64,000 nucleotides of DNA. Origin: Clostridia bacterium. Its GTDB lineage: Bacteria > Bacillota > Clostridia > Christensenellales > Aristaeellaceae. Positions 38,522 through 62,621 of the stretch are shown here, in pieces (position 1 is the stretch's first letter; each line of letters starts with the position of its first letter). The notes below the pieces were generated by a model, which saw nothing but the letters and a program-made list of their open reading frames with translations, searched no databases and had not been told where the DNA came from. The stretch is taken from assembly GCA_017527065.1 (NCBI GenBank), contig JAFXQO010000025.1:38001-102000 (forward strand), in the 5' to 3' direction. A program made the translations under genes and the position numbers.

Positions 38522-40027
38522 ATGGCCGAGGAAACCACAAACGCAACGCCCCAGGAGGAGCAGAACCTGTCCGAGCAGACGCAGATCCGCATCGGCAAGC
38601 TGAACGCGCTGAGCGAGGCGGGCAATAATCCCTACCGTATCACCAAATACGACCGCACGCACCTCTCCTGCGAGATCGTCGAAAACTTCGACGCGCTGGA
38701 GGCCTCGGGCGAGACCGTGTCCATCGCCGGGCGCATGATGAGCCGCCGCGTGATGGGCAAGGCCAGCTTCGCGCACCTGCTGGACGGCGCGGGCCTCATG
38801 CAGATCTACGTGCGCCGCGACGACGTGGGCGAGGAGGCCTATAAGGCGTTCAAGGATTTCGACATCGGCGACATCCTGGGCGTGACGGGCAAGGCCTTCC
38901 GCACCAAGACGGGCGAGATCTCCGTCCACTGCGAGACGGTCACGCTGCTCACCAAGTCGCTGCACCCGCTGCCGGAAAAATTCCACGGCCTGCAGGACAC
39001 CGACACCCGCTACCGCCAGCGCTACCTTGACCTGATCGTGAACCCCAACGTGAGGGACACGTTCGTGAAGCGCAGCGCCATCCTGCGGGAACTGCGCGCC
39101 TTCCTGGACGGCCGCGGCTTCCTGGAGGTGGACACGCCCATCCTCACCCCCTTTGAGATCGGCGCGTCGGCCCGGCCCTTCTACACGCACCATAACACGC
39201 TGGACATGGACATGGTGCTGCGCATCGAGACCGAGCTCTATTTGAAGCGCCTGATCGTGGGCGGCATGGACCGGGTGTACGAGGTGGGCCGCATCTTCCG
39301 CAACGAGGGCATGGACACCAAGCACAACCCCGAATACACCTCCATCGAGCTCTACCAGGCCTACACCGACTTCCGCGGCATGATGGATCTGGTGGAGGAC
39401 ATGATGAAAACCGTGGCGCAGAAGGTGTGCGGCTCCCTGGTCGTGCCCTACCAGGGCCTGTCCATCGACCTGGGCCACTGGGAGAAGCTGACCATGGTTG
39501 AGGCGGTGAAGAAGTACTCGGGCGTGGACTTCGCCGACTGGAAGACCGACGAGGACGCCATCGCCTGCGCGAAGGCGCACAACGTGGACCTGCCCGACGT
39601 GCCCACCAAGGGCGCGATCCTGGCCGAATTCTTCGACGCCTTCGTGGAGGAGAAGTTGATCCAGCCTACCTTCATCTACGATTATCCCGTGGAGATCAGC
39701 CCCCTGGCCAAGCGCAAGCCGGACGACCCGGCCTTCACCGAGCGCTTCGAGTACTTCGTCAACGCCACCGAGCTTGGCAACGCCTTCTCGGAGCTGAACG
39801 ACCCCATCGACCAGCGCGGCCGCTTCGAGCGCCAGGTGGCCGAACGCAAGGCGCTGGATCCGAACAGCCGCGCCCAGGTGGACTACGACTTCATCAACGC
39901 GCTGGAGTACGGCATGCCGCCCACGGGCGGCCTGGGCTTCGGCGTGGACCGGCTGGTCATGCTGCTGACGGACAGCGCCTCCATCAGGGACGTGCTGCTG
40001 TTCCCCACGATGAAGCCCATCGACTGA
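38522..40027 (+). CDS. lysS: Lysyl-tRNA synthetase, class II
   Basis: A 501-residue class II enzyme that charges tRNA-Lys. The N-terminal OB-fold anticodon-binding domain spans about residues 60-165. Class II motif 2 is GRIFRNEGMDTKHNPEYT, and motif 3 is GLGFGVDRLVMLLTDSASIRD-type near the end. The stretch FEIGASARPFYTHHNTLDMD replaces the more usual TGGANARPF, a minor variation. Its last eight codons form part of the integration site repeated at 62593-62621. Confidence 0.97.
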   Translation: MAEETTNATPQEEQNLSEQTQIRIGKLNALSEAGNNPYRITKYDRTHLSCEIVENFDALEASGETVSIAGRMMSRRVMGKASFAHLLDGAGLMQIYVRRDDVGEEAYKAFKDFDIGDILGVTGKAFRTKTGEISVHCETVTLLTKSLHPLPEKFHGLQDTDTRYRQRYLDLIVNPNVRDTFVKRSAILRELRAFLDGRGFLEVDTPILTPFEIGASARPFYTHHNTLDMDMVLRIETELYLKRLIVGGMDRVYEVGRIFRNEGMDTKHNPEYTSIELYQAYTDFRGMMDLVEDMMKTVAQKVCGSLVVPYQGLSIDLGHWEKLTMVEAVKKYSGVDFADWKTDEDAIACAKAHNVDLPDVPTKGAILAEFFDAFVEEKLIQPTFIYDYPVEISPLAKRKPDDPAFTERFEYFVNATELGNAFSELNDPIDQRGRFERQVAERKALDPNSRAQVDYDFINALEYGMPPTGGLGFGVDRLVMLLTDSASIRDVLLFPTMKPID

Positions 40028-40030
40028 CGA
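40002..40030 (+). repeat. Left attachment site (attL) in the lysS 3' end
   Basis: These 29 bases cover the final codons and stop of lysS plus three bases. They recur at 62593-62621 in the same orientation with one change, CCC to CCA in a proline codon, which is synonymous in the lysS frame. This is what site-specific integration at a gene's 3' end leaves behind. Confidence 0.9.
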
Positions 40031-40093
40031 GAAACCGGAAATCCCTTGCGGCGTAAGGCTTTTCAATGCGTCAGGATGCTCAAAAAGCAAGCT

Positions 40094-40115
40094 GTTTAAG
40101 CCAAGCGTAAGCCAA
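40094..40115 (+). repeat. Left arm-type repeat inside the island
   Basis: A 22-base sequence with core TTTAAGCC...GTAAGCCAA matches 62464-62486 in direct orientation, with one inserted base as the only difference. It contains two AAGCCA units. Its place just inside the island end suits an integrase arm-binding site. Confidence 0.7.
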
Positions 40116-40165
40116 TCAATGACAGTTTGTCTGTTGGCAGATCGAGTGGGGAATGCATCGTTTTA

Positions 40166-40203
40166 AAAAGCGCCTCCTGCGTTGGAACGCGGGGGGCGCT
40201 TTT
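40166..40203. terminator. Strong bidirectional terminator at the island's left end
   Basis: Arms AAAAGCGCC and GGCGCTTTT flank an inner stem GCGTT/AACGC. It sits after lysS and before the stop of the first ABC transporter gene, with T and A runs on both sides. Confidence 0.85.
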
Positions 40204-40222
40204 GTATGCTTTCTTTTCGTAA

Positions 40223-43760: not shown

Positions 43761-44546
43761 TTACTTTTTCCCAACCAACAGCGCAGACCCAGACAGCCCC
43801 ATCCAGCCCGCTTCGCTTTTCTTCATGAACTTGCCGCTGGCAGTGTCGATCAGTTCCGCTTTCTGGTAGCCCATGGATTTCAGCTTCTTCACGAACTCCT
43901 GCATATCGCCGTATTTGGAGGAGGAGAAGATGTCGTGGATGGCGAAGATTCCACCTTTTTTGAGGGTGCGCAAGGTTTCCAGAAGATACTGCTGGCGGTC
44001 GCCGGGGATGTTGTGGTAGACGTAGTTGCTGGTCACGGCATCGAATGTCTCGTCGGGGAAATCCAGATGCGTCGCGTCGCCCTGCCCAAAGGTCGTATTT
44101 TGCACCTTCTCCGCCTGGGCGTTGCGTTCGCACAGAGCCTTGCTGAAGGAAGCGTATTCCTTGCCCCAGCGGTCGATCCCCACAATAGAGGCTTTGGGAT
44201 TCCGCTTCGCCACGGCAATGGCCAGCGCCCCGCTGCCGCAGCCCACGTCCAGGCATCTCCCGCCCTGCGGCAGCTTAATATACGCTGCGACACCCTCAAT
44301 GATCTGCCGGGACATCCGCCGCTTGCCGTTATAGCTGAAGGCGCGATACATGAGAGCAGACCAGATGGTCAGCCCGCATAAGACCGCCGCCAGGACGGCA
44401 AACAGGACGGTCAGCACCGTTTGCCAGGTGCCCGACACCCATCCTGTGCAGGCAAACAGCAGGCAGAGCAGCAGCGAAGCGGCAGACCCAGCCGCGAAGG
44501 AAAGGATCATACCCTTAGGCATCCAGTTTTTGTAGTCTGGTTTCAT
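43761..44546 (-). CDS. Membrane-anchored class I SAM-dependent methyltransferase
   Basis: A 261-residue protein with two N-terminal membrane helices (about residues 12-34 and 40-63) and a methyltransferase domain. Motif I is CLDVGCGSGALAIAV, and the acidic loop after strand 2 is VGIDRWG. Later blocks are DFPDETFDAVTSNYVYHNI and LKKGGIFAIHDIF. Its C-terminus, FMKKSEAGWMGLSGSALLV, is echoed by the last residues of the pseudogene at 59042-59369. It is the first gene of the three-gene set with the two ABC halves; the substrate is unknown. Confidence 0.88.
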   Translation of the reverse strand: MKPDYKNWMPKGMILSFAAGSAASLLLCLLFACTGWVSGTWQTVLTVLFAVLAAVLCGLTIWSALMYRAFSYNGKRRMSRQIIEGVAAYIKLPQGGRCLDVGCGSGALAIAVAKRNPKASIVGIDRWGKEYASFSKALCERNAQAEKVQNTTFGQGDATHLDFPDETFDAVTSNYVYHNIPGDRQQYLLETLRTLKKGGIFAIHDIFSSSKYGDMQEFVKKLKSMGYQKAELIDTASGKFMKKSEAGWMGLSGSALLVGKK

Positions 44547-47193: not shown

Positions 47194-47685
47194 CTATCCC
47201 AGCGGCCGAACCGCCGTGATCTCATAGTACATCGGGGTATAGCCCTGCGGCGCGCCTTCCAGCAGCTTTGCCAGCAGCGCCTCATCCTCAACGAGGCGCA
47301 GCTGCATGCGCGCGCCTGAGGTAGGATAGATCGCCCCTTCCGCCGGCAGCGCCGCGTACATGGCCGTCAGCTCGCTGCCGGATTCGACGTTGGCCGTGGT
47401 TTGATTGGCGGCCAGACCGAGCTGGAGGTAATACGCGTCCCCCTCCTTCACGCAGCCATAGATGAAAAAGGCGAGGTTCGGCGTCCCATCCGGGTTCACG
47501 GAAGCGATGGCGTAAAAACCTGAGTGCGAATTGATTGCGTCCATCAGATCGTCCCCGTTCAGCATGCCACTCCCGTAAAAGTCCGTTATGGAGGCGGATG
47601 TCATCGCGTCGACTTCGACGGACTCCGCCTCTGCTGGCAGCAGCAGGACGCAGAGCAGCAGCGCGATCACCGACAGTTTTTTCAT
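47194..47685 (-). CDS. Exported PNPOx-like flavin-binding protein
   Basis: A 163-residue protein with a signal peptide (VIALLLCVLLLPAEA). The mature part resembles the split beta-barrel of pyridoxamine 5'-phosphate oxidase-like proteins: SGFYAIASVNPDGTPNLAFF, YLQLGLAANQTTANVESG and YYEITAVRPLG. Such proteins bind FMN or heme-like cofactors. Export is unusual for the fold. It is the last gene of the ten-gene iron operon, three bases after an ABC ATPase gene, which suggests extracellular flavin-based iron reduction, an inference only. Confidence 0.72.
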   Translation of the reverse strand: MKKLSVIALLLCVLLLPAEAESVEVDAMTSASITDFYGSGMLNGDDLMDAINSHSGFYAIASVNPDGTPNLAFFIYGCVKEGDAYYLQLGLAANQTTANVESGSELTAMYAALPAEGAIYPTSGARMQLRLVEDEALLAKLLEGAPQGYTPMYYEITAVRPLG

Positions 47686-47688
47686 GGA

Positions 47689-48408
47689 TTAACACTCCTT
47701 TCCCAGCTCCGGCGCATCAAAGCGCCGGGCATTTTGTTCGTCCGAATACAGTCTGCCTCCGTCCATCCGGAAGCGCCGGTTTCCAAATCGCAGCGCTTCA
47801 TTGTCGTGTGTGACCAGAAGCACCGCCTTCCCATCCTCCTCCGCCGCCCTGCGAAGCAGCGTGAGCGCAGCGGCCGTGTTCTCATCGTCGAGATCGCCGG
47901 TTGGTTCGTCGGCCAGGATGACCTCCGCGCCTCCGGCCAAAGCGCGGGCGATCGCCATGCGGCGCAGTTCCCCGCCGGAGAGCTCCGCGGGCCGCGCATC
48001 TTTAAGATTCGCTATGCCCAGGGCTTCGAGCCAGCGCATGGCGGTCTGCTCGTCGCCCTTTTCCCCGTTCAACTGCGCGGGCAGAAGCACGTTTTCCAGC
48101 ACCGTCAGCGTATCGATGGCGCTGCGGGACTGGGGAATCACGCCGATCTTTTCGCGGCGCAGGCGGGACAAGGCCTTATCCGGGAGGACGTAGAGATCCG
48201 TGCCTCCCAACCAGACTTTGCCCTCGGTGGGCGTCAGCAGCCCGGCCAGCATGTGCAGAAGCGTCGTCTTGCCGGAGCCGGACCGGCCTGTGAGCAGCGT
48301 CACTTCACCAGGGCGCAGCTCCAGGCTGACATCGTGCACCGCAAAAAAATGGTTGGCCTTCCCGGTCTTGCGGAAATAGCGCATGGACAGGCTTTCGGCT
48401 TTCAGCAC
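47689..48408 (-). CDS. ABC transporter ATP-binding protein (LolD/MacB type)
   Basis: A 239-residue ATPase with Walker A LTGRSGSGKTT, signature LSGGELRRMAIARALA and Walker B VILADEPTGDLDDEN. It is of the LolD/FtsE-like class that pairs with FtsX-type permeases and usually drives mechanical work rather than direct import. It lies three bases from the permease gene upstream, its likely partner. This is the second ATPase of the operon. Confidence 0.9.
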   Translation of the reverse strand: MLKAESLSMRYFRKTGKANHFFAVHDVSLELRPGEVTLLTGRSGSGKTTLLHMLAGLLTPTEGKVWLGGTDLYVLPDKALSRLRREKIGVIPQSRSAIDTLTVLENVLLPAQLNGEKGDEQTAMRWLEALGIANLKDARPAELSGGELRRMAIARALAGGAEVILADEPTGDLDDENTAAALTLLRRAAEEDGKAVLLVTHDNEALRFGNRRFRMDGGRLYSDEQNARRFDAPELGKEC

Positions 48409-48411
48409 TTC

Positions 48412-49614
48412 TTACTCCCCCTCTCTCAGCGCGACGCCCGGGTCGACCCTGCTGAGCCGCGCCGCCGCCCAGGCGCCCGCGACGCCGCCAACCAACAGCG
48501 TCGCCAGCAGCGTGACGGAGGCCAGGCGCAGCACCGTGACGGCGGAGGGCGTCAGATAGGGCAGCCCAAGCCGCGTCTCGATGAGCGTCGTGAAGGGAAA
48601 CACGCCTGCGGCCGCGATCCCAACGCCGAGAAGCGCTCCCGCCAGGCTGCAAAGTCCTGTCTCCGCCAATATTTCCGCCCTGAGTCCGCGCCGGGATACG
48701 CCCAACAGGCGCAGCACGGCGAACTCCCGCCGCCGCTCGTGAATCATCATGGCAAAGGCGATCAGAAGAACGATCAATGCCAGCGCCCACACCGCGCCGA
48801 TCAATCCCGTCACAGCGCGGGAAATGCCGGCAAGGCTGTCGGAAACATCGGTGAACATGCTGCGGGCGCGCACAGCGGTGACCTTGCGCACGTGGCCGTT
48901 CAGCCAGGTATTGACGAGGCCCACATCCCAGCCGTCTTTGACCTTTACGTAGACAGCGGAAATCAGGTCGTCCGTATCGCTGCTGATCTGATGGGTGACG
49001 CCTTTGGCTTCCGCCGCGGCCAGCAGTTTTTTCATGGTGTCCAGGCTGCAATAGACCGCCGTATCCAGTCCTGTGCCGGTCTCGGCCAGCCTGGCCACCA
49101 CGTGCGTGTGCTGATCATAAATTTTGAGGGTCTCTCCCACGCCCGCCGTTACGTTACAGCCCACGACCACCTCCATGTCGCCGAGCTCATGAGAATAGCT
49201 CTCGTCAATCCAGGGCTTCACGATGAAATCCGTTTCCGGATCAATGCCGATGATCTGCACCTTGACGGCGCAGCAGTCCGCCTTCAGCGAGGCCAGGAAG
49301 GTCTGTGGCGCGGCGATCTCAACGCCCTGCGCGGCCCGAACCTGATCCAGCACGGAGGCATCCATGTAGAAAGCGCCCGTGGTGCCCTGCAACAATATGT
49401 TCTTGAAACTCACCTTGCTTTCGGCGGAAGACGGCAGGACGATGATATCCGCGCCGAGGCGCGCCTCGAGGCTGTCCAGTCCGCTGCGGAGCGAGCCGAT
49501 GACCAGGGAGCCGCCGAACACGGCCGCGGCCAGCAGAGCCGTCAGCAGCAGGAGGGCGGCGGTTCGCCCGGGCTTGCGGAGCAGGTTTTTGAACGGAAGA
49601 CGACTGGCTCCCAT
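48412..49614 (-). CDS. FtsX-like ABC permease (third of the operon)
   Basis: A 400-residue MacB/FtsX-type permease with one N-terminal helix, a large extracellular domain (about residues 40-260) and three C-terminal helices. ALIVLLIAFAMMIHERRREFAVLRLLGVSRR is the coupling region, given here only as a family pattern of ERRREFAVLRLLG. Partner of the ATPase encoded next. It shows only weak resemblance to the two other permeases of the operon. The extracellular partner is probably P19 or FTR1 by analogy with known FTR1-P19 systems. Confidence 0.87.
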   Translation of the reverse strand: MGASRLPFKNLLRKPGRTAALLLLTALLAAAVFGGSLVIGSLRSGLDSLEARLGADIIVLPSSAESKVSFKNILLQGTTGAFYMDASVLDQVRAAQGVEIAAPQTFLASLKADCCAVKVQIIGIDPETDFIVKPWIDESYSHELGDMEVVVGCNVTAGVGETLKIYDQHTHVVARLAETGTGLDTAVYCSLDTMKKLLAAAEAKGVTHQISSDTDDLISAVYVKVKDGWDVGLVNTWLNGHVRKVTAVRARSMFTDVSDSLAGISRAVTGLIGAVWALALIVLLIAFAMMIHERRREFAVLRLLGVSRRGLRAEILAETGLCSLAGALLGVGIAAAGVFPFTTLIETRLGLPYLTPSAVTVLRLASVTLLATLLVGGVAGAWAAARLSRVDPGVALREGE

Positions 49615-49617
49615 AGG

Positions 49618-50010
49618 CTATCGCGCCTCCCTGCGGGTCAGCAGCCAGCCCGTAAGCGCCACCACAAGCATCGCGGCGAAGAGGATGATCATCGCGGGCC
49701 GCATCAGCATTCGGCAGCGCATGGTCGGGGCTTTGCACAGGGCGATGAGTCCGCCGGGCGTGCAGATGCCCAGAATGGACGACGGGATCATCGCCAGGTA
49801 CAGGCCTGCGCGTTCCTTTTTCAGCGCCAGCGCGGCGGCGGCCAGCACGGCCAGCAGGCAGCCTTCGCCCAGCAGCGCCTGGCCCGCCCAGTGGCATGCG
49901 CCGAGGCTTCCGTCCTCATGCGCGCAGGGGGCCAGGAAAGTCTGGCTGCCGGCGATCACGACCAGCGAAAGCGCCAGCATCGCGCAGGCGGGGATGATGG
50001 ATTTCTTCAT
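49618..50010 (-). CDS. DUF4418-like small membrane protein
   Basis: A 130-residue membrane protein with four hydrophobic segments. Conserved-looking cysteines are in FLAPCAHEDGSLGACHWAGQA and GICTPGGLIALCKAPTMRCR, a pattern matching the DUF4418 family that commonly sits among MacB-like ABC genes. The Cys and His pairs face outside by the positive-inside rule and might bind metal or pass electrons, but the function is unknown. The start at 50010 has GGGAGG; a longer frame overlaps the upstream gene. Confidence 0.75.
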   Translation of the reverse strand: MKKSIIPACAMLALSLVVIAGSQTFLAPCAHEDGSLGACHWAGQALLGEGCLLAVLAAAALALKKERAGLYLAMIPSSILGICTPGGLIALCKAPTMRCRMLMRPAMIILFAAMLVVALTGWLLTRREAR

Positions 50011-50027
50011 GAGGCACCTCCCGACGG

Positions 50028-50702: not shown

Positions 50703-50704
50703 GC

Positions 50705-52162: not shown

Positions 52163-52176
52163 GCCGCTTACCTCCC

Positions 52177-53472
52177 TCAGTGCCCGCCGTGGAGCACTTC
52201 CGCGGGCCGCAGGCGCAGCACCATGCGGATGGCGGGCAGGCTGCCCGCGATGGTGACCAGGGCGATGAGCCCCGCCACAATGGGAATCACCCGCGGATTC
52301 ATGTCGATGGCCGATGAAAACACGCTGCGCCCGATGAGCTGGGCGAAGCCGAAGCCCAGGAAATACCCGCCCGCGAAGCCGACGAGGGCGGTGATGAGGA
52401 TCTCCGTCATCACCACGCCGGTGATGGAATGATCCCGCGCGCCGATGGCCTTCAGGAGGCCGATCTCCTGGCTGCGCTCCATCACGGAGGCGGTGACGAG
52501 GTTCGATATGCCCAGGGCCGAGCCGATGAGGCTCAGCGCGGTGATGAGGATCATAAGGAGTTTGGTCTTGTCGAGGATGGTGCCCTCGCTTTCAGCTACC
52601 TTGCGCACGGCGCTGGCCACCGAACCGGTGACGACCTCCTGAATCTGATAGCAGATGGCGCTCACATAGGCCGTGCAGTACCAGGTCTCGTAATCGCGGC
52701 TGCTCAGCGCCGCGGGATTGCGGGCCGCCCGGCGGGCCAGCTCGTTGTCTGGGGTGGTGAGGGCGGACACCTCGATGGAGGCCACCTTGTTCTCCCGATC
52801 CGTCAGCGCCTGGACGAGATCGAGGGTAGCGAAGATCTGCTCGTCCTCGTCGCCGCCCGCGTCGTAGACGCCCGCGACGGTCACGTCCTTCTCGCCGGAC
52901 GAGGCGGCGATATGCACGGTGTCGCCCGCGTGCCAGTCCATTTTCTGGGCCAGCAGCGCGCCGACCATGATTTCGGAGGCGGCGTTTTCATCCTTCTCGT
53001 CCAGCCAGCGCCCTTCGGTCACGTCCCACCAGGAACGCATGCCCACCACGCCCGCGTCCAGGCTCTCGCCGGTGGGCAGATCCAGGTGGTGATTGAACCA
53101 GGTACCCGTCATTTTGACCTGGCTTCCGTCCGGCAGCGCTGCCTGGGTGTCCAGGAAGGGCGTGAAGTCCACGATGTTGAAGGCCCAGAAGATGGTTTTG
53201 ATCTTGCCCAGCTCGTCCTCGCGCAGGTAGGCGGCGTTCAGCTCCGCGCCTTCGCCCACGTCGTATATGTCGGACAGCAGCGAGGAATCCTTGGGCTTCA
53301 CCACGATGTTGGCCCCGTAGTTTTTCAGTTCCTTGTTGACCTTTTCCTCCACGCCAAGCACCACGTTGAGCATGCCGGTGGCCAGCGACGCGCCCAGGGC
53401 GATGGTCAGCGCGATCAGCAGCATTTTGCCCTTCTGGTGGAAGAGCACGCCGCGAATCATACGAAACAGCAT
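52177..53472 (-). CDS. FtsX-like ABC permease (first of the operon)
   Basis: A 431-residue MacB-type permease. One N-terminal helix, KMLLIALTIALGASLATGML, is followed by an extracellular domain (about residues 45-270) and three C-terminal helices containing SVMERSQEIGLLKAIGARD. It lacks the FMN-binding insertion of its neighbour. Similar permease pairs occur beside FTR1-P19 in Campylobacter and Bifidobacterium. Spacing to the neighbours is 12-14 bases. Confidence 0.88.
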   Translation of the reverse strand: MLFRMIRGVLFHQKGKMLLIALTIALGASLATGMLNVVLGVEEKVNKELKNYGANIVVKPKDSSLLSDIYDVGEGAELNAAYLREDELGKIKTIFWAFNIVDFTPFLDTQAALPDGSQVKMTGTWFNHHLDLPTGESLDAGVVGMRSWWDVTEGRWLDEKDENAASEIMVGALLAQKMDWHAGDTVHIAASSGEKDVTVAGVYDAGGDEDEQIFATLDLVQALTDRENKVASIEVSALTTPDNELARRAARNPAALSSRDYETWYCTAYVSAICYQIQEVVTGSVASAVRKVAESEGTILDKTKLLMILITALSLIGSALGISNLVTASVMERSQEIGLLKAIGARDHSITGVVMTEILITALVGFAGGYFLGFGFAQLIGRSVFSSAIDMNPRVIPIVAGLIALVTIAGSLPAIRMVLRLRPAEVLHGGH

Positions 53473-53484: not shown

Positions 53485-54780
53485 TTATCTGAATTCTTTT
53501 TCACCGGCGAGGATGTCTTCCAGCCGGAAGACCAGATTGCCGTCCTTCACCTCGTAGGCCAGCGGAATGGGGTTGCAGCCGCCCTTGAAGCCGATGGTGT
53601 TGATGTTCATCACCACGTCGCACCGCTTGCAGATGATCTGCCCGTTGCGCTCGAAGTAGCCGGCGTTGCCGCACACCTCGCAGGCGTCCAGGCCCACGCC
53701 GAAGCTGGCGGAATTCGGCTTTTTCACCACGATCCAGCGCACGTCGATGTTCTTTTCGGTCTTGTATTCAAAGCGGTGCAGGTGTCCGTCGCTCACGTTT
53801 TCCATGGACACCAGGATCACCCCGGCCTCTTTATCCACCGTGTAGGCCTCGGGGGCGGAGAGCTCCACCTGCTTCGTGTCGTTGGCCTTCACGACCGTCA
53901 TGATGACCGCGCACAGGACGAGGCACGCCAGCACGCCCGCGGCCATGCGCCGCCAGTGCCGGTTGCGGGCCTTCAGCTTGCGCAGCTGGGCGGGGTTGTC
54001 GTAGGGCTCTTTGATGACCGTGCCCTGGCGGAACAGGACGGCGGCCAGCAGCGCCGCGAGGACTGCCATGATCCAGATGAACAGCATGGAATGATTGGCG
54101 GTGAACATCATGATGTCGCCGATCCAGCCGTAGGCCTCGTCGGTGTATTTCACGGGCCATTTCAGCCACTTGGCCCGGTTCACCCAGGGCACGAAGAAGC
54201 GGCCGAAGCAGTACACGGCGAAGGACAGAAGGCCCGCGTTCAGCAGGAAGGGCGCGAGGCCGAAGGGCTTTATATCAGACGCGCAGCCGGCAAGCAGGCG
54301 CGAATAAATCAGCAGCAGGACGAGCGCCCCCAGCCATCCGGCCAGGCGCACCAGGTAATAGGAGGAAAGGTACCCCTGCCCCATGGTGTTGAAGCTGAAG
54401 GGATACAACAGCACGCCGGGCAGCGCGTAGAAGATCAGCGTGGCCGACATCAGCGAACCCGCGGCGCACAGCAGCGCGCCGCCCGCGTTCAGGCGCGCGT
54501 TCTTCTTCCGCCCAAAGAGGAGACAAAACAGCAGGATCAGGACGGTCAGCGCCAGGATGACGGCGTAGATATAGTGGTTCCAATGGCTGGAAATGATGAG
54601 CTTTGTGTTGAATTTGACAACGGCCAGCGCCACGGCGGCCAGAACGCCGGCGCCCAGGGCGATCCCGTGGATCAGCCGCCCCCTGCGGCCGAACAGCCGG
54701 GACAGCATGGCGTGCATGAGCGTGGTCAGGGTGACGGTCAGGAACAGATCCTGCGTCACCATCCAGAGATACTTAAACAC
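53485..54780 (-). CDS. DUF2318 membrane protein with Cys cluster
   Basis: A 431-residue protein. The first 290 residues hold about seven or eight membrane helices. The C-terminal outer domain is DUF2318, with cysteines at C367, C370, C384, C387 and C402 (CEVC, CKRC and KGGCNP). This arrangement suggests an iron-sulfur or heme-type metal site. DUF2318 proteins are regular neighbours of FTR1-P19 systems and are thought to take part in iron redox handling; the exact role is unproven. Confidence 0.88.
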   Translation of the reverse strand: MFKYLWMVTQDLFLTVTLTTLMHAMLSRLFGRRGRLIHGIALGAGVLAAVALAVVKFNTKLIISSHWNHYIYAVILALTVLILLFCLLFGRKKNARLNAGGALLCAAGSLMSATLIFYALPGVLLYPFSFNTMGQGYLSSYYLVRLAGWLGALVLLLIYSRLLAGCASDIKPFGLAPFLLNAGLLSFAVYCFGRFFVPWVNRAKWLKWPVKYTDEAYGWIGDIMMFTANHSMLFIWIMAVLAALLAAVLFRQGTVIKEPYDNPAQLRKLKARNRHWRRMAAGVLACLVLCAVIMTVVKANDTKQVELSAPEAYTVDKEAGVILVSMENVSDGHLHRFEYKTEKNIDVRWIVVKKPNSASFGVGLDACEVCGNAGYFERNGQIICKRCDVVMNINTIGFKGGCNPIPLAYEVKDGNLVFRLEDILAGEKEFR

Positions 54781-54890
54781 GATAAACCCTCCGACAATCA
54801 GAGTGTGTCAACGCGCGTCAAGCCGGCGCGCCGTCCCCCGCGGATGACGCACCGGCATGAAAGAGACTTGATATCAGTCGGTCTTGCGGA

Positions 54891-55442
54891 TTACCATTCC
54901 TTGACGAACTTCCAGCCCGTCCAGGTGGCGGTCAGCGGCTCGGTCCAGAAGCCTTCCTTGGCTTCGACGCCGGTCTCGGCGTCCACGTGGAGCAGATAGC
55001 CGTTCTCAGCGGGGCTCTTGATGTACAGGGTGATGGTGTACTCGCCCTCGGGCAGCGGGATGTTGTTGCCGTAGTGGGGGCCGTCGGAAGCCGCCATGGG
55101 CATCATGGAGCCGGAATACACTTCCTTGCCCTCCAGATCCTTGATGACGAAGTCGATGCTCAGGTAGGGCACCCAGCCGTCCACCGGGAAGCCGTAGGGG
55201 TTCTCGTTGGCGGTCAGATCCACTTCGATGTGCAGGTCGCTGCCCTCTTTGGGCGTGGCATTCTCGGCGGGGGCCATGTCAACGGGCTGGAAATACACCA
55301 TGGACATGGTCATGAAGCCGACCTCCTGTTCGCCCTCGACGCCCAGTTCGTACTCGTCGAAACCGGCTTCTTCCGCCAGACCAAAGGCGGAAACGCTCAT
55401 GATCGTCAGGGCAGCCAGCAGCAGGGCAAGAAACTTCTTCAT
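54891..55442 (-). CDS. P19-family periplasmic-type iron/copper-binding protein
   Basis: A 183-residue exported protein with a signal peptide (FLALLLAALTIMSVSAFGLA). It matches the P19/Tp34 family: H71-x-E73 in LHIEVDL, M116, H123 in GPHYGNN and H152. The spacing M116-H123 equals that of the copper ligands M88-H95 in Campylobacter P19. There is no lipobox cysteine, so how it stays near the cell surface is unclear. It would hand iron to FTR1, whose gene lies 84 bases upstream. Confidence 0.92.
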   Translation of the reverse strand: MKKFLALLLAALTIMSVSAFGLAEEAGFDEYELGVEGEQEVGFMTMSMVYFQPVDMAPAENATPKEGSDLHIEVDLTANENPYGFPVDGWVPYLSIDFVIKDLEGKEVYSGSMMPMAASDGPHYGNNIPLPEGEYTITLYIKSPAENGYLLHVDAETGVEAKEGFWTEPLTATWTGWKFVKEW

Positions 55443-55526
55443 TGTGAAATCCTCCTTGAATAATAAAGATGATTGATTGTATATCCGGCGCGGACTGCGC
55501 GGGGCAGGTCGCGGGGGTATCGGGGG

Positions 55527-57284
55527 TTATTTGCTGAACTGCGCCTTCAGCGCGTCCAGCTTGCCGCGATAGTGGGCGATCAGGAAGGTAACCAGCAGAA
55601 TGATCGAGAGGATCAGCTGCGGGACCAGCGTCTCCAGCCAGGGATACACGCCGAAGATCTGGATCACGTCGTTTTCCGGGATGCCGGGCACGCGCAGCGT
55701 CAGGTCGAACACATTGCCCTCGGCCAGCTCCTTGATGCCGCTGCCCAGGAAGGACACGCACATTACGGCCATCAGGATGGAGGTGGCGGTAAAGAACACC
55801 TTGATGGGCAGTTTGATGGACAGCTTCGTGATGGCCAGATACACGAACACCAGCAGCACGCAGCCCGTCGCGAATCCCGCCCACACCATGCCGGGGTTGC
55901 CCTCCGAGAGCATGGGCTGATAGAACAGCACCACCTCCGCGCCTTCCCGGAACACGGAGAGGAACGCGGTGAAGGCCAGGGCGAAGGCGCTGCCCTGCGC
56001 CACGGAGGACTGCACCCTGCCGTCTATATAGCGGCTCCAGGATGCGGCCTCCGCCTTGGAAATCATCCAGTTGCTCACGTAGAACAGCACGCACACGGCA
56101 ATCAGCGCCGTGATGCCCTCGATGACCTCCTGCGCCAGACCCGCGCCCACGAACGCCCGCTTGGCCCAGGCCAGAACGGCGGCGGCGACGAAGCTGGCGA
56201 TTACGCCGGCAATCGCGCCGAGGTACACGCTTTTCAGGTTCCGGCCGTTGCCGCTCTTCATGAGATAGGCGATGATGGCGGCGATGACCAGGATGGCCTC
56301 CAGGCCCTCGCGCACGATGATGCCAAACGCGCCCAGGAAGGTGAGCAGCCTCGGGTCGCTCTGCCTGACTTCGGTCTCTTCCGCTTCCGCGGCGGCCTTT
56401 TCGGCGGCTTCCGCAGCGGCGGCCGCCTTGGCTTCCTCGTTCTTCTCGTCGATGGCCCTGGCGTATTTCAGGATCGCGTTCTTGGCCGCGTCGGTGGAGG
56501 TGCGGAATTTGTTTTTCTGATACTTTTCCTCCCCGGAGGAGACCAGAGAACGCAGGGTGGTGAAGTGTTTCTCCATGGCCTGCCGGTCTTTCAGGGAGAG
56601 GTCGGTATAGATGGCGTGGTCCAGGCCGGATTCCTCGTAAACCGAGTAATAGGCGGTGTTCAGGTTATCCGCCGCCGCCTCGAAGTCCTTGTCCAGATAC
56701 CCCATGTAGGCGGTGTCCAGCAGCTCCTTCACCAGCGTCGCGGCCTCATACCAGTTTTCATATTTCGCGGCCGCGTTGGGATCGGCGCTGAAATCGGCGT
56801 AGGGATCGGAGGAAACCAGCTCGCCCCGCAGGTAGTATTTGGTCTCGCTCTGCACGCCGCCCTGCATGGCGGCCAGCTTGTTGCCGTCCTCGCGGATCAT
56901 GGCCTTGAGCTTTTGAAGGGCGCTGCGCACGGCGATTTTTGTATCCAGCGTTTCGTTTTCCTTTTTCACCGCCGCCTTGCAAGCCGAGAACTGCATCTCC
57001 ACGGCGTTCTTCCGGTTGCCGGAAACGTAGCTCATGGTCTGCCGCTCGAAGCCGGTGGTCTCGTACACCCGGAAATAGGCGTTGCTCACGTTGCTGTAGG
57101 CGGCGTCCGGGTCGCCGTCCAGGTAGGCCTCGAAGGCCGCGTCCAGGAACTTGTCGATTTCGTCCGCGGCGTCCGCCCAGCGGGTGGAGGCCGCTTCCTC
57201 GGCCAGGCCGTTGAGCGGCAGCGCCAGAACGATCCATATCATCATGCCGCACAGCAGACGGCAGGCGAGCCTTCCTCTTTTCAT
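55527..57284 (-). CDS. FTR1-family high-affinity iron permease
   Basis: A 585-residue iron permease. A signal-like start is followed by a 300-residue extracellular helical region made of two similar halves (FEAYLDGDPDAAYSNVSNAY and YMGYLDKDFEAAADNLNTAY), which looks like an internal duplication, and an Ala/Glu-rich coiled segment (about 285-310). The membrane domain has the two iron motifs REGLE at 325-329 and REGAE at 446-450. The second departs from REGLE by one residue. First gene of the ten-gene operon; operator C lies between its promoter and start. Confidence 0.95.
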   Translation of the reverse strand: MKRGRLACRLLCGMMIWIVLALPLNGLAEEAASTRWADAADEIDKFLDAAFEAYLDGDPDAAYSNVSNAYFRVYETTGFERQTMSYVSGNRKNAVEMQFSACKAAVKKENETLDTKIAVRSALQKLKAMIREDGNKLAAMQGGVQSETKYYLRGELVSSDPYADFSADPNAAAKYENWYEAATLVKELLDTAYMGYLDKDFEAAADNLNTAYYSVYEESGLDHAIYTDLSLKDRQAMEKHFTTLRSLVSSGEEKYQKNKFRTSTDAAKNAILKYARAIDEKNEEAKAAAAAEAAEKAAAEAEETEVRQSDPRLLTFLGAFGIIVREGLEAILVIAAIIAYLMKSGNGRNLKSVYLGAIAGVIASFVAAAVLAWAKRAFVGAGLAQEVIEGITALIAVCVLFYVSNWMISKAEAASWSRYIDGRVQSSVAQGSAFALAFTAFLSVFREGAEVVLFYQPMLSEGNPGMVWAGFATGCVLLVFVYLAITKLSIKLPIKVFFTATSILMAVMCVSFLGSGIKELAEGNVFDLTLRVPGIPENDVIQIFGVYPWLETLVPQLILSIILLVTFLIAHYRGKLDALKAQFSK

Positions 57285-57547: not shown

Positions 57548-57943
57548 TTGAAGGGCAAATCAGGAAGGGCTTCGCCGTCCGAACGGGAAACCGGCGGCGA
57601 GACGCTGGCGCGGGCCGCCATGGCCTACATCGAGGCGCACAGCGCCGAGAAGTTTTCGCTCCAGACGATGGCCGGCGCGCTGTTCGTGAACGGGAGCTAT
57701 CTGCTGCGCGCCTTCAAACGGCACACCGGATGCACGCTTCTCGCCTATCATCACCGCGTTCGCTGCGCGAAGGCCAAGGAACTTCTGGCCGGCTCGGATC
57801 GGAGCATATCGGAGATCGGCGAGATAACCGGCTTCGTTTCATCCTCCCATTTCGCGCATATTTTCAATAAGATGGAAGGATGCACGCCCACCGAATACCG
57901 CATGAGAAGCAGGCGTTCAGCCGTGAGAAAGGAGTCCCTATGA
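57548..57943 (+). CDS. AraC-type HTH protein without sensor domain
   Basis: A 131-residue protein consisting of little more than the AraC DNA-binding domain with its two HTH motifs: FSLQTMAGALFVNGSYLLRA and ISEIGEITGFVSSSHFAHIF, ending in GCTPTEYRMRSR. It begins with TTG after AAGGGGG. Without a ligand domain it may act with the DtxR-like protein encoded next, with which it shares an ATGA overlap. It probably controls the island's metal genes. Confidence 0.88.
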   Translation: MKGKSGRASPSERETGGETLARAAMAYIEAHSAEKFSLQTMAGALFVNGSYLLRAFKRHTGCTLLAYHHRVRCAKAKELLAGSDRSISEIGEITGFVSSSHFAHIFNKMEGCTPTEYRMRSRRSAVRKESL

Positions 57944-58299
57944 GTCAGTCACTGGATCGGTATTTATATACGATAAGGACGCTGCACGATCAGTATGTGT
58001 GCGTCCGTTCGGTGGATGTGGCGCACTATCTGGGCATTTCCAAAGCCTCCGTCAGCGCCGCCGTCAAAAAACTGGTTGAAGGCGGCATGCTGATCATGGA
58101 AGCGGACGGAAACCTGGTTCTGACACAAACGGGCGTTCAATACATGCTGGGCTATCGGGAGCGCTGCGATTTCTTTCATCGCCTGCTGCTAGCGGCCGGT
58201 CTGGAGCCAGACAACGCGGAAAGAGAAGCTTTTTCCCTGGCGCAGGCTGTACAGCCCGACACGTTTGCTGCATTGAAAAAGTATCTTGCTGATGTTTAG
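57940..58299 (+). CDS. Short DtxR/MntR-like regulator with altered metal ligands
   Basis: A 119-residue winged-helix protein aligning over its whole length with MntR: VRSVDVAHYLGISKASVSAAVKKL is the HTH and GNLVLTQTGVQYML the wing. By eye alignment to B. subtilis MntR, ligands D8, E11, H77, E102 and H103 become R7, Y10, a cysteine, Ser and Leu, and only E99 is kept. The protein may sense another metal or none. It is the best candidate to bind the TTAG-N6-CTAA operators. It is coupled to the AraC-type gene (ATGA) and has AAAGGAG. Confidence 0.82.
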   Translation: MSQSLDRYLYTIRTLHDQYVCVRSVDVAHYLGISKASVSAAVKKLVEGGMLIMEADGNLVLTQTGVQYMLGYRERCDFFHRLLLAAGLEPDNAEREAFSLAQAVQPDTFAALKKYLADV

Positions 58300-58347: not shown

Positions 58348-59028
58348 TCATTTCACACACCGGAAAATCCCTTCCGCCCGGACAGTGTGCACCTCCACTT
58401 CCCGGTAAAAGCCTTTCAACCTGCTTTCCAGGCTCTCCTTTGTTTCAAACGGAGCAGTAAAGAAGCCCTTTGGCACATACATCTTCTTCACAAAGAAATC
58501 CGTTCGGGCAAATTCTCCCGCGATATAGAAGCAGCCGCAGAAGACGCCGCCGGGCTTCAGCACGCGGTATGTCTCCCGATATGCCGCCTCCTTGTCGGGG
58601 AAGGCGTGAAAGCCGTTCAGGGACAGCACGATGTCAAAGCTGCCGTCTTTATAGGGAAGCGCGCCCACATCGCCCTGTTGGAAGCGGACGTTTCCGACAG
58701 CCATGGCCGCTGCCCGTTTTTCGGCACGCGCCATCATATCCACGGAATAGTCCAGGCAGGTGATGTCCGCCTCCGGGAGGCTTTTATACAGCGGCATGGT
58801 CAGCACGCCTGTGCCCACCGGCACTTCCAGCAGCTTTCCCGCGAAATCTCCGGGGATCGGGGCCAGCGCGTCATTCAGCCATTGCGCCGCCTTTTCCGCG
58901 TCCAAACCCCAGACCAGGCTGTCCAACAGCTTCCCCAGTAAGGTCGAACGGGTGACAATGCCATCGTACATGGTGCCGAGATGGCCCAGTTGTTTATAGG
59001 ATGCCCTGATTTCATCGTGCCGTGACAT
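58348..59028 (-). CDS. Class I SAM-dependent methyltransferase
   Basis: A 226-residue cytoplasmic methyltransferase. Motif I is LLEVPVGTGVLTMPL, in which the usual glycines are partly replaced. Post-I is ITCLDYSVDMM, and FDIVLSLNGFHAFPDKEAAY and LKPGGVFCGCF follow. It is of the UbiE/Methyltransf_11 type. The substrate is unknown. It is last in a set that runs from the ZIP transporter gene through a second methyltransferase and a broken gene. Confidence 0.87.
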   Translation of the reverse strand: MSRHDEIRASYKQLGHLGTMYDGIVTRSTLLGKLLDSLVWGLDAEKAAQWLNDALAPIPGDFAGKLLEVPVGTGVLTMPLYKSLPEADITCLDYSVDMMARAEKRAAAMAVGNVRFQQGDVGALPYKDGSFDIVLSLNGFHAFPDKEAAYRETYRVLKPGGVFCGCFYIAGEFARTDFFVKKMYVPKGFFTAPFETKESLESRLKGFYREVEVHTVRAEGIFRCVK

Positions 59029-59041
59029 GCTTATTTCCTCC

Positions 59042-59369
59042 CTACAGCGTCGATCCGCCCAGACTCAGCCAGGCGGCTTCTTTTTTGTTCATGAAGGTTC
59101 CGTCTGTCGTGCCGATCAGGCGGAATTCCGCATGATATTGAACGCATCTGGTTCGCTTTTTCCATGCTGCTGCAAAACTTCGTACAGCGCGATGGTGGTC
59201 AGAATTAGCGCCAGGTGCTTGTAGTTTCCTTGATCGCAATACTGTTTTTCTTCTTCGATCAGCACCCGCATCCGGCATAGACATCCTGTTGAATATCCTT
59301 GGAAAGCGTAGGGAACAGCACTTTATAGCGGCTGATTGCCACCAGTTTTTCGGGCGTATACTGCTTCAT
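59042..59369 (-). pseudogene. Frameshifted small gene (ATC-hydrolase-like) with methyltransferase-like tail
   Basis: The frame opens at 59369 with an ATGA overlap with the upstream methyltransferase (QYTPEKLVAISRYKVLFPTL...). It breaks near 59272, where one base appears lost, continues as MRVLIEEEKQYCDQGNYKHL and LALILTTIALYEVLQQHG, and stops at about 59130. A third frame then gives RLIGTTDGTFMNKKEAAWLS to a stop at 59042, which resembles the C-terminus of the methyltransferase at 43761. The central part resembles the L-2-amino-thiazoline-4-carboxylic acid hydrolase-like family by memory; this is uncertain. At least two frameshifts make it nonfunctional unless there are sequencing errors. Confidence 0.65.
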
Positions 59370-59977
59370 TCTCCGTCATCCCTTTCGCACTCCGCGTACA
59401 TCATGGCGATGCGTGCAGCCATTTCCTTGCTGAAGGTCACGCGCCAGCCGTAGTTCCCCAGGAAACTCAGGTATTGCTGTGCCGTCCATTGATGCTCAAA
59501 GCGGATGCCCACGATGCGCAGGATGCCTGACCAGATGCGGCTTCCCAGCGTCCCCTTATGCTCCACAAAGTTGGGGGCGATGAGCAGCCCACCGGGCCGC
59601 AACACTCGTTTGATTTCATTCAGCACTTTCCCGGGATCGGGAACGATGTGCAAAGCATTTGCGATGATCACCGCGTCGAAAGAACCGTCAGCATAGGGCA
59701 GGTTCATGGCGTCTGCCACCTCGAAAGTAAGGTTGGGGATAGGTTCACCCTTCTTCGCCTGTGCGATCATGCCGTCGGAATAATCGGTCGCGATCATCCG
59801 TTTTGCCGCCGGAGCCACGTGTTTGGCAAGCAATCCGGGGCCTGTGGCGATCTCCAGCACTTCCATGCCCCGTATCTTTTCCGGGATGCGCTGATACATG
59901 AAATCGTAAATATGCTGATCGGCCTTCATGGCCTGCTTGTAGATCGGCGCGTATAAATCCCATATCTGTTTCGTCAA
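59366..59977 (-). CDS. Class I SAM-dependent methyltransferase
   Basis: A 203-residue UbiE/Methyltransf_11-type protein. Motif I is VLEIATGPGLLAKHV, then MIATDYSDGMIAQAKKG, FDAVIIANALHIVPDPGKVL and LRPGGLLIAPNF. It begins with TTG after GGAGGGG. It probably modifies a small molecule, conceivably a metallophore or an arsenic- or metal-related substrate, but nothing fixes this. Confidence 0.88.
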   Translation of the reverse strand: MTKQIWDLYAPIYKQAMKADQHIYDFMYQRIPEKIRGMEVLEIATGPGLLAKHVAPAAKRMIATDYSDGMIAQAKKGEPIPNLTFEVADAMNLPYADGSFDAVIIANALHIVPDPGKVLNEIKRVLRPGGLLIAPNFVEHKGTLGSRIWSGILRIVGIRFEHQWTAQQYLSFLGNYGWRVTFSKEMAARIAMMYAECERDDGE

Positions 59978-59999: not shown

Positions 60000-60782
60000 T
60001 CATCCCAACGCCACGTCCAGCGCCATCATCAGCGTAAAGCCCGCTGCAAACATCAAGACGCCGATATTGGAGTGTTCGCCCTCGCTCATTTCCGGGATCA
60101 GTTCTTCCACCACCACATACATCATGGCCCCCGCCGCAAAGCTCAGCAGATACGGCATCGCGGGCACGATCAGGGAGGATAAAAGGATGGTCAGCACCGC
60201 CGCAATGGGCTCCACCGCGCCGGACAGCACCCCGTCCCGGAACGCCCTGCCCTTGCGCTTTCCCTCCGCGTGCAGCGGCATGGAAATGATGGCCCCTTCC
60301 GGGAAGTTTTGGATGGCGATGCCCAGGGAAAGGGCCAGCGCACCGCCTGCGGTGATCTCCGCAGACCCGGACAGAAAACCGGCATACACCACACCCACCG
60401 CCATGCCTTCCGGGATGTTGTGAAGCGTAACGGCCAAAACCATCATGGTGGTTCGGGCCAGCCTGCTTTTCGGGCCTTCCGCTTGATTCGCGTTCATGTG
60501 CAGATGCGGGATGACGGAATCCAGCAGCAGGAGAAACAGGATGCCGCACCAGAACCCAATCACAGCGGGCAGAAAGGAAAGCTTGCCCATGGGCTCCGCC
60601 TGCTGCATGGCGGGGATAAGCAGGCTCCATATGGAAGCCGCCACCATCACGCCGCTGGCAAAGCCGGTCAAAGCCCGCTGAACGCCCCGGGAGAGCGACT
60701 TTTTCATGAAGAATACGCAGGCAGCCCCAGCGGACGTGCCGATAAATGGGATCAGAAGACCGATTCCTGTGTCCATGTTCAT
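60000..60782 (-). CDS. ZIP-family metal transporter
   Basis: A 260-residue membrane protein with about eight helices, of the ZupT/GufA-like ZIP branch that imports divalent metals. The metal site motifs are LHNIPEGMAVG in helix 4 and QNFPEGAIIS in helix 5. A cytoplasmic loop between helices 3 and 4 has HLHMNANQ, a possible metal-binding stretch. GAGGTG precedes the ATG. Its place on the island supports a general metal-supply role (zinc, iron or manganese). Confidence 0.93.
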   Translation of the reverse strand: MNMDTGIGLLIPFIGTSAGAACVFFMKKSLSRGVQRALTGFASGVMVAASIWSLLIPAMQQAEPMGKLSFLPAVIGFWCGILFLLLLDSVIPHLHMNANQAEGPKSRLARTTMMVLAVTLHNIPEGMAVGVVYAGFLSGSAEITAGGALALSLGIAIQNFPEGAIISMPLHAEGKRKGRAFRDGVLSGAVEPIAAVLTILLSSLIVPAMPYLLSFAAGAMMYVVVEELIPEMSEGEHSNIGVLMFAAGFTLMMALDVALG

Positions 60783-60799
60783 TGCGCGTCACCTCGTTT

Positions 60800-61663
60800 T
60801 CAGCGGTTTTTCTTTTCCAGCCGGACGGTTCTGGCCTTTTCTTCCGTGTCCTCGTCCTCGACATAGCCGTCATACGGCGCGTCCGGATCGGAATAATGCT
60901 TCGTGAAGGGCTTGCAGATTTCTTCCCGGTGGGCAAAGGCAAAATCCAGATCGTCCGTCCAGCCGGTATGCCCGGTAATGACAGCAATCCGACGATTCCG
61001 GGCGCGGATGTTTTCTTCCAGTTTCTGAAGGGACTGAACAGCCAGCCTGTTATCCTCCGCCAGGGTGCTGATGAAACTGTACCCGCCGTCTGCGCCGAAC
61101 CAGATGGTGTCGCCGGTAAAAAGGTAGGTATCGTCGATCAGATACACCATGTGTCCCCAGGTATGGCCCGGCACATGCAGGCATTCAATTTTGATGTCCC
61201 CGATATGGAAAACCTCGCCATCCTTCAGCAGCCTCTTTTTGTTGTCCATCTTTACCATGGGCAGTTTATACAGTCCATGAAAGACCTTCCGACGCTTTTC
61301 CCCGGTCAGGTAGCGGTTTTCGATCTCGCCGATATAGACCGTTGCGTTCTTGAACAGCAATTCGCTGTCCGTTTCCAGCGCGCCCACGTGATCGGTGTCC
61401 TGATGGGTGATGAGGATGTCCCGGATTGAGGTTGGATCGATGTCCAGCCAGCTCATCTTCTCCCGGAGACGCTCATAGTTGTATCCCGCGTCGATCATAA
61501 CGGTCGTACCGTTTTTGGTATAGAAGAAGATATTAGCCACCCATTCCCGCACGCAGGCAACGTGATCGTCGATCCAGCCCGTATTCAGGGGCTTGAAGAT
61601 CGCACGCCCCCGAAACAAGGCACTCATGGATTTCTTCTGGTGTTCGGAATCCTTTCTTGCCAT
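60800..61663 (-). CDS. MBL-fold metallohydrolase
   Basis: A 287-residue metallo-beta-lactamase-fold hydrolase. The metal motif HxDxDH is THQDTDHVG, and HVPGHTWGHMVY and FTGDTIWFG supply the further ligands. It has no signal peptide. Similar proteins include glyoxalase II- and quorum-lactonase-like enzymes; the substrate is unknown. It starts after GGAAGGAGG and is preceded by operator F, so it probably leads the operon that includes the ZIP gene, 17 bases on. Confidence 0.9.
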   Translation of the reverse strand: MARKDSEHQKKSMSALFRGRAIFKPLNTGWIDDHVACVREWVANIFFYTKNGTTVMIDAGYNYERLREKMSWLDIDPTSIRDILITHQDTDHVGALETDSELLFKNATVYIGEIENRYLTGEKRRKVFHGLYKLPMVKMDNKKRLLKDGEVFHIGDIKIECLHVPGHTWGHMVYLIDDTYLFTGDTIWFGADGGYSFISTLAEDNRLAVQSLQKLEENIRARNRRIAVITGHTGWTDDLDFAFAHREEICKPFTKHYSDPDAPYDGYVEDEDTEEKARTVRLEKKNR

Positions 61664-61775: not shown

Positions 61776-61797
61776 TCAAATCTAAAAAAATAACTGC

Positions 61798-61998: not shown

Positions 61999-62056
61999 AT
62001 AAACACTTCCCGTTACTCTTCCGCATCAGGAAACAAGGTGTTGGAGGCGTCATGGA

Positions 62057-62107
62057 GATTAGTCGCCTCTAACACCTCTATTATATTCTTTAATCGGCAG
62101 ATATCAA
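62057..62107 (-). promoter_or_regulatory. Promoter with iron-box-like operator G
   Basis: On the minus strand TTGATA (62102-62107), 16 bases, TATAAT (62080-62085), then after six bases the palindrome GTTAG-AGGCGA-CTAATC (62057-62074). The layout copies that at operator B. The operator also lies in one arm of an imperfect hairpin (62038-62074). Confidence 0.78.
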
Positions 62108-62226
62108 GGGGGGAATGAAAATTTTACTGTTATGCCATCCGCTCTGGAACATTCAGTTCAAAGTGTTTTCTTCTCTGTTGACACCCTTTCGTTGACATCC
62201 TCATCGGCTGCAATACTCCAATAACA

Positions 62227-62460
62227 GTGACTTTTCATTGGCATTTATTCCCACAGCGGCAATTCTTTCATTTGGCATGGCTCGGGCTCCTTCTGTTGGA
62301 AGGTTATTACATTTTTATACTTATAGGGCATTCCGATATTGCCACAACACTGAACATCTACGCGGACATGACAAAGGAGCTCAAGAAAAAGGAATTCACG
62401 GGACTCGATACCTACTTCAAAAAAAGGACAATGAGCAACATCGCGGAAACGGGGCATTGA
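62227..62460 (+). pseudogene. Remnant of a tyrosine recombinase (integrase) C-terminus
   Basis: Only the last 45 or so residues resemble an integrase: IGHSDIATTLNIYADMTKEL followed by KKKEFTGLDTYFKK. This includes the second conserved His and the catalytic Tyr of the family. The catalytic Arg and the first His-x-x-Arg box are absent, and the sequence before IGHSD has no similarity in any frame I read. It lies 133 bases from the right attachment site, where an intact int gene would be expected, so the enzyme has decayed. Confidence 0.82.
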
Positions 62461-62463
62461 GCC

Positions 62464-62486
62464 GTTTAAGCCAGAGCGTAAGCCAA
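62464..62486 (+). repeat. Right arm-type repeat inside the island
   Basis: Direct copy of 40094-40115 with one extra base. Two GGCTTATG units follow at 62505-62523, the reverse complement of the same core with a variant base, as in integrase arm sites. Confidence 0.68.
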
Positions 62487-62592
62487 CAAGAACATTTTGG
62501 GTAACGGCTTATGGAGGCTTATGAATTGAGTATCCCTTCATTTGAAAGAGAGCGTGCCGTTATAAAGACTTATGGCGGGAGCACGTCTGAAA

Positions 62593-62621
62593 TCCCCACG
62601 ATGAAGCCAATCGACTGACGA
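62593..62621 (+). repeat. Right attachment site (attR), copy of the lysS end
   Basis: 28 of 29 bases match 40002-40030, including the lysS stop codon. Translated in that frame it still reads PTMKPID and stop. Native sequence follows. The 62461-62769 gap also holds the next promoter and no gene. Confidence 0.9.

Follow-up and report, generated by a model that had tools for sequence, protein, structure and literature searches.

Metal-uptake genes between two lysS ends: a probable decayed integrative element in a Clostridia draft genome

Genes and repeats between two lysS ends

The window analysed here, the whole stretch of 64,000 nucleotides, comes from a draft genome of 85 contigs and 3,071,170 bases (3.07 Mb). 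In it lysS, which encodes lysyl-tRNA synthetase (LysRS), is followed by a segment with predicted metal-uptake genes, and at the far end of this segment the last codons of lysS occur a second time (Table 1). The two ends form a direct repeat of 29 bases with 1 mismatch, TCCCCACGATGAAGCC[C/A]ATCGACTGACGA. Since the mismatch falls on the third base of a proline codon it is synonymous in lysS, and the sequence bears out an earlier note on this DNA, which had described a 29-base repeat with a single synonymous CCC/CCA change. We found 2 copies only in the window (28-base pattern, up to 3 mismatches), the number expected by chance being 0.00 over 100 shuffles of the window, and the same 2 copies only in the draft genome (26-base pattern, up to 2 mismatches); a reversed-pattern control gave 0 copies in all 3,071,170 bases. 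These counts agree with the view, already taken in that note, that the repeat is not due to chance, and they speak against a common dispersed sequence, which the note had named as a refutation.

Table 1. Features of the lysS locus; positions are those of the window.
Feature	Position	Strand	Basis
lysS, lysyl-tRNA synthetase, 501 aa, C-terminus FPTMKPID	38522..40027	+	Pfam tRNA-synt_2 and anticodon OB fold
attL, lysS-end repeat	40002..40030	+	Repeat search, window and genome
Left arm-type repeat, TTTAAGCCAAGCGTAAGCCAA	40095..40115	+	By reading, inside left end
Terminator-like hairpin, between lysS and convergent ABC gene	40166..40203	.	Inverted repeat and fold
Two exporter-fold ABC subunits, 576 and 597 aa	40223..43743	-	Pfam ABC_membrane and ABC_tran
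SAM-dependent methyltransferase	43761..44546	-	Pfam
GLUG-motif exported protein, 748 aa	44611..46857	-	Pfam
163-aa protein	47194..47685	-	No family found in domain, NCBIfam or further search
Second ABC ATPase, FtsX permease, DUF4418 membrane protein	47689..50031	-	Pfam
ABC ATPase and two MacB/FtsX-type permeases	50028..53472	-	Pfam FtsX, MacB_PCD
FtrD-like Fe-S membrane protein, P19 (54891-55442), FTR1 permease (55527-57284)	53485..57284	-	PF10080, PF10634, PF03239
AraC-type regulator and MntR-like repressor, divergent from FTR1 operon	57548..58299	+	Pfam; NCBIfam scores below cut-offs
Two SAM-dependent methyltransferases	58348..59977	-	Pfam
ZIP metal transporter	60000..60782	-	Pfam; 99% aa identical to one in G201 (other genus)
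Metallo-beta-lactamase-fold hydrolase	60800..61663	-	Pfam
Tyrosine integrase C-terminal relic, 44 codons and stop, begins GHSDIATTLNIYADMT	62326..62460	+	Similarity to intact Tn916-type relatives
Right arm-type repeat, TTTAAGCCAGAGCGTAAGCCAA	62465..62486	+	By reading, inside right end
35-codon frame from element DNA into displaced lysS tail	62511..62618	+	Reading of frame
attR, displaced lysS end	62593..62621	+	Repeat search, window and genome
Protein gene of right flank, outside element, weak NifU/IscU similarity (below cut-offs)	62770..63471	+	Family search

The Pfam scan found no C-terminal tRNA_bind domain in the LysRS of the window. In frame with the displaced lysS tails, an ATG, GTG or TTG is present at 14 of 14 att sites (ATG in 11), in some cases within lysS itself, a count from which we draw no conclusion. 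The hairpin region, 40155-40215, has a predicted fold of -32.3 kcal/mol (z -6.1) on the plus strand and of -23.2 kcal/mol (z -4.4) on the minus strand. No tRNA genes were found in the window, and no RNA families in 39900-63000.

FTR1, P19, the FtrD-like protein and permease/ATPase genes lie in one operon, as in a P19-FTR1 system. P19 matches solved P19, FtrA and Tp34-type chains, and one FtsX-type permease of the operon (50705-52162) has an FMN-binding domain inserted (PF04205, residues 190-265). For the ABC pair, no NCBIfam model reached its cut-off among the 25 matches listed. A relaxase, a coupling protein or type IV secretion genes, by which an ICE would be recognized, were not found among the 20 cargo proteins scanned. 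We infer that the cargo consists of a P19-FTR1 iron-uptake operon together with the ZIP transporter, the ABC pair and the methyltransferases, the transport functions being predicted from the protein families.

An integrase relic and arm-type repeats

The right end of the segment holds an integrase relic, as the earlier note had proposed. Its 44 codons, which end with a stop codon at 62458-62460, match the intact Tn916-type integrases of two related elements, one with 55% identity across 31 aa (E 7.6e-7), the other with 52% across 33 aa (E 7.0e-7). Three intact related integrases were scanned and all have both PF02920, the Tn916-type DNA-binding domain, and PF00589, the domains of Tn916-type integrases; these relatives are linked to lysS codons. 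With 6 integrase queries we detected no further convincing integrase parts in the window, and no similar integrase was found elsewhere in the same draft genome (relic tail, E 1e-4; profile, E 1e-60). The complete integrase of a self-mobile integrative element is thus represented in the window by its tail only, and the integrase of the lysS-directed lineage at this end is present as the 44-codon relic only.

Arm-type repeats inside both ends, likewise claimed before, were seen by reading. Words of TTTAAGCCA also stand beside the related sequence of G124 (L131), the best match of our relic and likewise decayed to a relic (62%, one stop). An 8-mer occurring at least 3 times after lysS was present at 2 of 75 loci versus 4 of 72 control windows, and one occurring at least 2 times at 55 of 75 versus 43 of 72; since these counts hardly differ from the controls, the arm repeats rest on reading and not on statistics. 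On the minus strand at 61798-61998, a 66-aa ORF reads like a helix-turn-helix or excisionase-type protein, and may be an element gene.

Related integrases often lie next to lysS ends

The relic peptide, searched against 300 genomes, gave 9 matches other than itself. A displaced lysS end was present within the 1.5 kb fetched downstream of 7 of these 9, and was not found in the 3.1 kb fetched for the two others (L134, L138). We then considered 20 of 54 tyrosine recombinase places as a check set (rows 1-19 minus the already known G008:C73, plus two from the same genome as the window), 2 of which have the lysS-end motif within 700 bp. One of them, L254 from G004, a genome of the same genus as the window, is the sole high scorer of the set with the lysS-integrase profile (483.9 bits), and its motif lies 226 bp downstream. 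The motif match at the other, L251, we judged to be due to chance.

The lysS-integrase profile, built from six integrases, was run against 297 genomes and gave 15 matches in 11 of them. Seven scored at least 528 bits, two of these being members of the profile. Of the five new high-scoring matches, four have a lysS end no more than 1.5 kb away; that of the fifth, at 1.8 kb, was found only once further sequence was fetched. Among the eight low-scoring matches (237-288 bits), L269 ends at a contig edge 5 bases downstream; a lysS end was found at 0 of the remaining 7, followed over 1.5 kb, three of which have equal or nearly equal scores, two identical.

Phage and plasmid collections also contain such integrases: a lysS end lies at 5 of the 7 matches fetched, which were the best six of 1931 phage records and the best of 506 plasmids with a match, and is lacking at the other two (L233, L236). 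A scan of IMG/VR with an intact integrase found no relative. In a tree of 45 integrases, the 19 linked to lysS require 5 changes versus a mean of 14.6 with shuffled labels (0 of 500 shuffles as low), a result inflated by near copies and by the choice of rows by hand. For this tree L251 was set to chance and L270 set to lysS by hand, and L252 (too short), L138, L259, L263, L269, L271, L273 and the relics were left out.

An intact integrase beside attR reads towards attR from a distance of 150-331 bp, or of 1.8 kb in one G419 element; in the record L237, the integrase faces lysS itself. Integration into the 3' end of lysS is well supported by these sequence comparisons, mainly by those of the relatives.

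Other lysS elements in related genomes

The lysS-end motif was scanned in 300 genomes of the family, including the genome of the window, and candidates were taken from the matches listed and then fetched. Pairs of lysS ends on the same strand were found, among the matches listed, in G210 (16 kb), G274 (5.9 kb), G141 (34 kb) and G042 (505 bp). Small lysS remnants with integrase relics are present in G124 (1.3 kb) and G295 (1.8 kb), and a pair 5.3 kb apart was found in G034, a member of another family. Further pairs were found in G546 (11.4 kb) and G351 (54.6 kb), and G419 has two elements in tandem, of 49.3 and 63.6 kb. The order lysS, element, integrase, attR is the same in the single-contig genomes G351 and G419. 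The G351 element encodes a relaxase, a coupling protein and a TraG-type ATPase, and the 34-kb element of G141 (L089/L090, G141:C108) carries abortive-infection, arabinose isomerase-like and GH127 genes. The motif match of G128 adjoins a high-scoring integrase. Motif matches in G102, G017, G282:C63, G290 and others were judged to be chance coding matches.

At 80 named lysS loci, a motif match lies downstream in 8 of 80 versus 0 of 80 on the other strand; three of these were judged real by eye (L146, L150, L173). The relatives nearest by lysS among named genomes are uncultured Clostridia drafts, some of them labelled as from the rumen. In G004, one contig has arms of the TACACCA type after lysS, and on another contig these words recur between an integrase and a lysS end; with TACACCA-type arms at both its sites, G004 seems to carry a different lysS element. 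No second copy of the lysS end was found in the approximately 20 kb read in G001. Judged by sequence, the segment of the window appears to resemble other mobile elements that insert at the lysS end in related bacteria.

A longer displaced lysS piece, starting close to the GMPPTGG codons, is seen in L105, L136 and L137 (G131, G146 and G141). These longer pieces may reflect a second recombination point farther upstream in lysS.

The cargo is a mosaic

The origin of the cargo was followed as the best nucleotide identity per 600-bp bin to 14 genomes. From 40.0 to 44.8 kb the identity is 89-92%, all to the genera g46/g60, whose lysS products are only 63-65% identical to that of the window in protein (G201 gave no lysS match). 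The region of the GLUG protein (44.8-46.6 kb) is 80-82% identical to g46, and from 47.8 to 49.6 kb the best identity to any of the 14 genomes is only 73-77%. The stretch from 50.2 to 58.0 kb is 86.5-95% identical to G001 (mostly 90-95%, with one bin at 86.5%), and lysS itself is 90.1% identical to that of G001 in nucleotides; being about as close to the same-genus G001 as lysS is, the FTR1 block need not be foreign. Farther on, 58.6-59.2 kb is 80% identical to G211 and 59.2-61.6 kb is 86-95% identical to g46. At the protein level, identity to G001 is 62-65% for the genes at 47689-50031 and 91-97% for the run of genes that starts with FTR1 and ends with the first ATPase, a step which probably marks a recombination break near 49.7-50.0 kb, inside one operon. 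Identity between the MntR-like protein and its G001 counterpart is only 56%.

The identities thus differ block by block, which makes the island a mosaic whose components circulate within the family. Of what the earlier note had said about the cargo, the iron and metal content stands, and the idea of a single imported block does not. FTR1 is present in 9 of 40 genomes, including that of the window, and is off the lysS contig wherever both were found. Other genomes of the family also have much of the gene set in clusters, on non-lysS contigs or far from lysS, so that its placement at lysS is particular to the genome of the window among those examined. In G178, a single contig, much of the set is clustered, and the one lysS-end motif of this genome among the matches listed is about 0.44 Mb away. 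A search for the ancestral place of the FTR1 operon with the G001 flank gave scattered matches only in the genome of the window.

Interpretation of the segment

We consider it very probable that what lies between the two lysS ends is a lysS-directed integrative element, now decayed, with a mosaic metal-uptake cluster. In the mechanism we propose, a Tn916-type tyrosine integrase, after binding to core and arm sites, would have inserted the element by recombination into the final codons of lysS (PTMKPID). Thanks to the 3' end carried in by the element, which would also have supplied a terminator, lysS would have remained intact; the displaced native tail would have stayed at attR, and the integrase gene would later have been lost save for its last 44 codons. 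Since the integrase is reduced to these codons, the segment is presumably unable to excise itself. As to the cargo, P19 would bind iron outside the membrane and FTR1 would import it, with FtrD and the FMN-bearing permease handling electrons; the ZIP transporter and the ABC pair may move other metal species, under putative AraC and MntR-like control.

In 3'-end integration, the far copy is usually the displaced native gene end and the near copy is the imported one. By this logic, we infer that attR is the displaced native lysS end and attL the imported copy. The earlier note was right to regard the second copy as a genuine lysS end, but it had this copy brought from another strain, and the usual logic reverses the roles; no empty relative was found that would decide the assignment.

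Neither placing lysS and the gene of the right flank in relatives nor comparing same-genus flanks revealed an empty lysS site, contig breaks being a possible reason. In relatives with both genes, lysS and the right-flank gene are on separate contigs, except in G029, where 112 kb lie between them; the native flanks of G001, G004 and the window do not align even within the genus. Nor did we see a relative with this metal cargo at lysS; with no empty site and no such relative, one-step insertion is without support from relatives. The right flanks of G351 and G419 were also considered as an empty-site test, and were set aside because the matches of their shared gene, which from its sequence we take to be a dihydrouridine synthase gene, lie elsewhere relative to lysS. 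GC content along the window, a check named in the earlier note, is weak evidence by itself: 2-kb windows inside the segment have lower values (about 0.49-0.66) than those of the left flank (about 0.58-0.72), with overlap between the two ranges.

The strongest alternative is that a small lysS remnant came first and that the metal cluster moved in later by homologous or other recombination. The existence of small two-ended remnants (505 bp in G042; 1.3 kb in G124 and 1.8 kb in G295, both with relics) would fit such a history, as would the mosaic cargo, with breaks near 44.8, 47, 49.7 and 58 kb, and the fact that other genomes have a large part of these genes clustered at places apart from lysS. 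However, at least one other lysS element, that of G141, has accessory cargo between its ends, and the identity breaks, the sole search made for a recombination scar, revealed none. We regard this history as a real possibility that falls somewhat short of probable. It is rather unlikely that the segment was a member of a former tandem array, from which a deletion between members removed the integrase and the backbone: G419 does have two elements in a row, and arm-like repeats of a further element can be read after attR in G034 and G141, but the draft genome of the window contains no third lysS end. An assembly artefact, with unrelated contigs joined at the 29-base repeat, might be suspected in a draft of 85 contigs where the neighbour of lysS is not conserved in relatives, but is most improbable, given that the repeat copies differ at one base and that integrase tail, arms and attR are laid out as in the single-contig G351 and G419.

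Relation to known systems

LysS is already known as a target of ICEs in Streptococcus, where the part of the source available to us describes three ICE/dICEs in the lysS 3' end with repeats of 13 or 17 bp (PMC4701971). These share with the window a tyrosine integrase, the lysS 3' end as target and direct repeats at or near the gene end, and the window differs, as far as that part of the source goes, in its Clostridia-type genome, its 29-bp repeat, its decayed state and its iron cargo. AcrIIA22 islands were considered as a known match and rejected, being sited at purF-radC and not at lysS in the part of the report available (PMC8545432). Among open-licence papers, searched by title and start of abstract, we found none on lysS-integrating elements in Clostridia.

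P19-FTR1 clusters are described, in the available parts of the sources, for C. jejuni (1649-1655; PMC6083913) and as flavin-associated clusters of Gram-positives (PMC8238504), where an FMN-binding gene is reported (PMC8238504, PMC6083913). Compared with these parts, the window shares FTR1, P19, the FtrD-like protein, two permeases with an ATPase and, as in Gram-positives, an FMN-binding domain. It differs from them in that the FMN-binding domain is within a permease, in an extra FtsX/ATPase/DUF4418 module, and in its ZIP, ABC and methyltransferase neighbours.

The integrases described here would make up a recognizable class in Clostridia, tied to the end of one essential gene, whose contents range from a 55-kb element with conjugation genes, through iron, sugar and phage-defence cargo, to bare remnants. 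For island finding in draft genomes, this suggests the simple rule of inspecting the DNA after lysS. The window may show a route by which a metal-uptake cluster became fixed beside lysS.

LysRS architecture at the integration site

In G351, lysS (L277:2889-4817) encodes 642 aa, and its C-terminal tRNA_bind domain lies inside the 54.6-kb att-bounded element; the displaced tail at attR (MKPKDTL) is without this domain. In G419 (L288:1353-3326, L281:12017-12532), tRNA_bind is found at lysS and again at the middle att, and the far att lacks it. The sequences of these two genomes suggest gain of the domain by integration. There may be an even chance that the PTMKP codons of lysS serve more generally as a domain-exchange site, at which the C-terminal piece brought by an integrating element adds or removes the tRNA-binding domain of LysRS. 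If true, mobile elements would remodel a tRNA synthetase in a single step.

In G008, lysS ends short (MKPLA) and a tRNA_bind frame is present at the integrase-side att (L091:4512-5075); G221 also has such a frame at the integrase-side att (L132:1856-2224). By eye, MT839044 (L235) reads like these two. The integrase-side frames in all three could be either the cut-off host domain or the left end of a further element. The length of LysRS differs widely at this site: among 80 named lysS genes (L140-L219), 22 extend more than 40 codons past the point at which lysS of the window ends.
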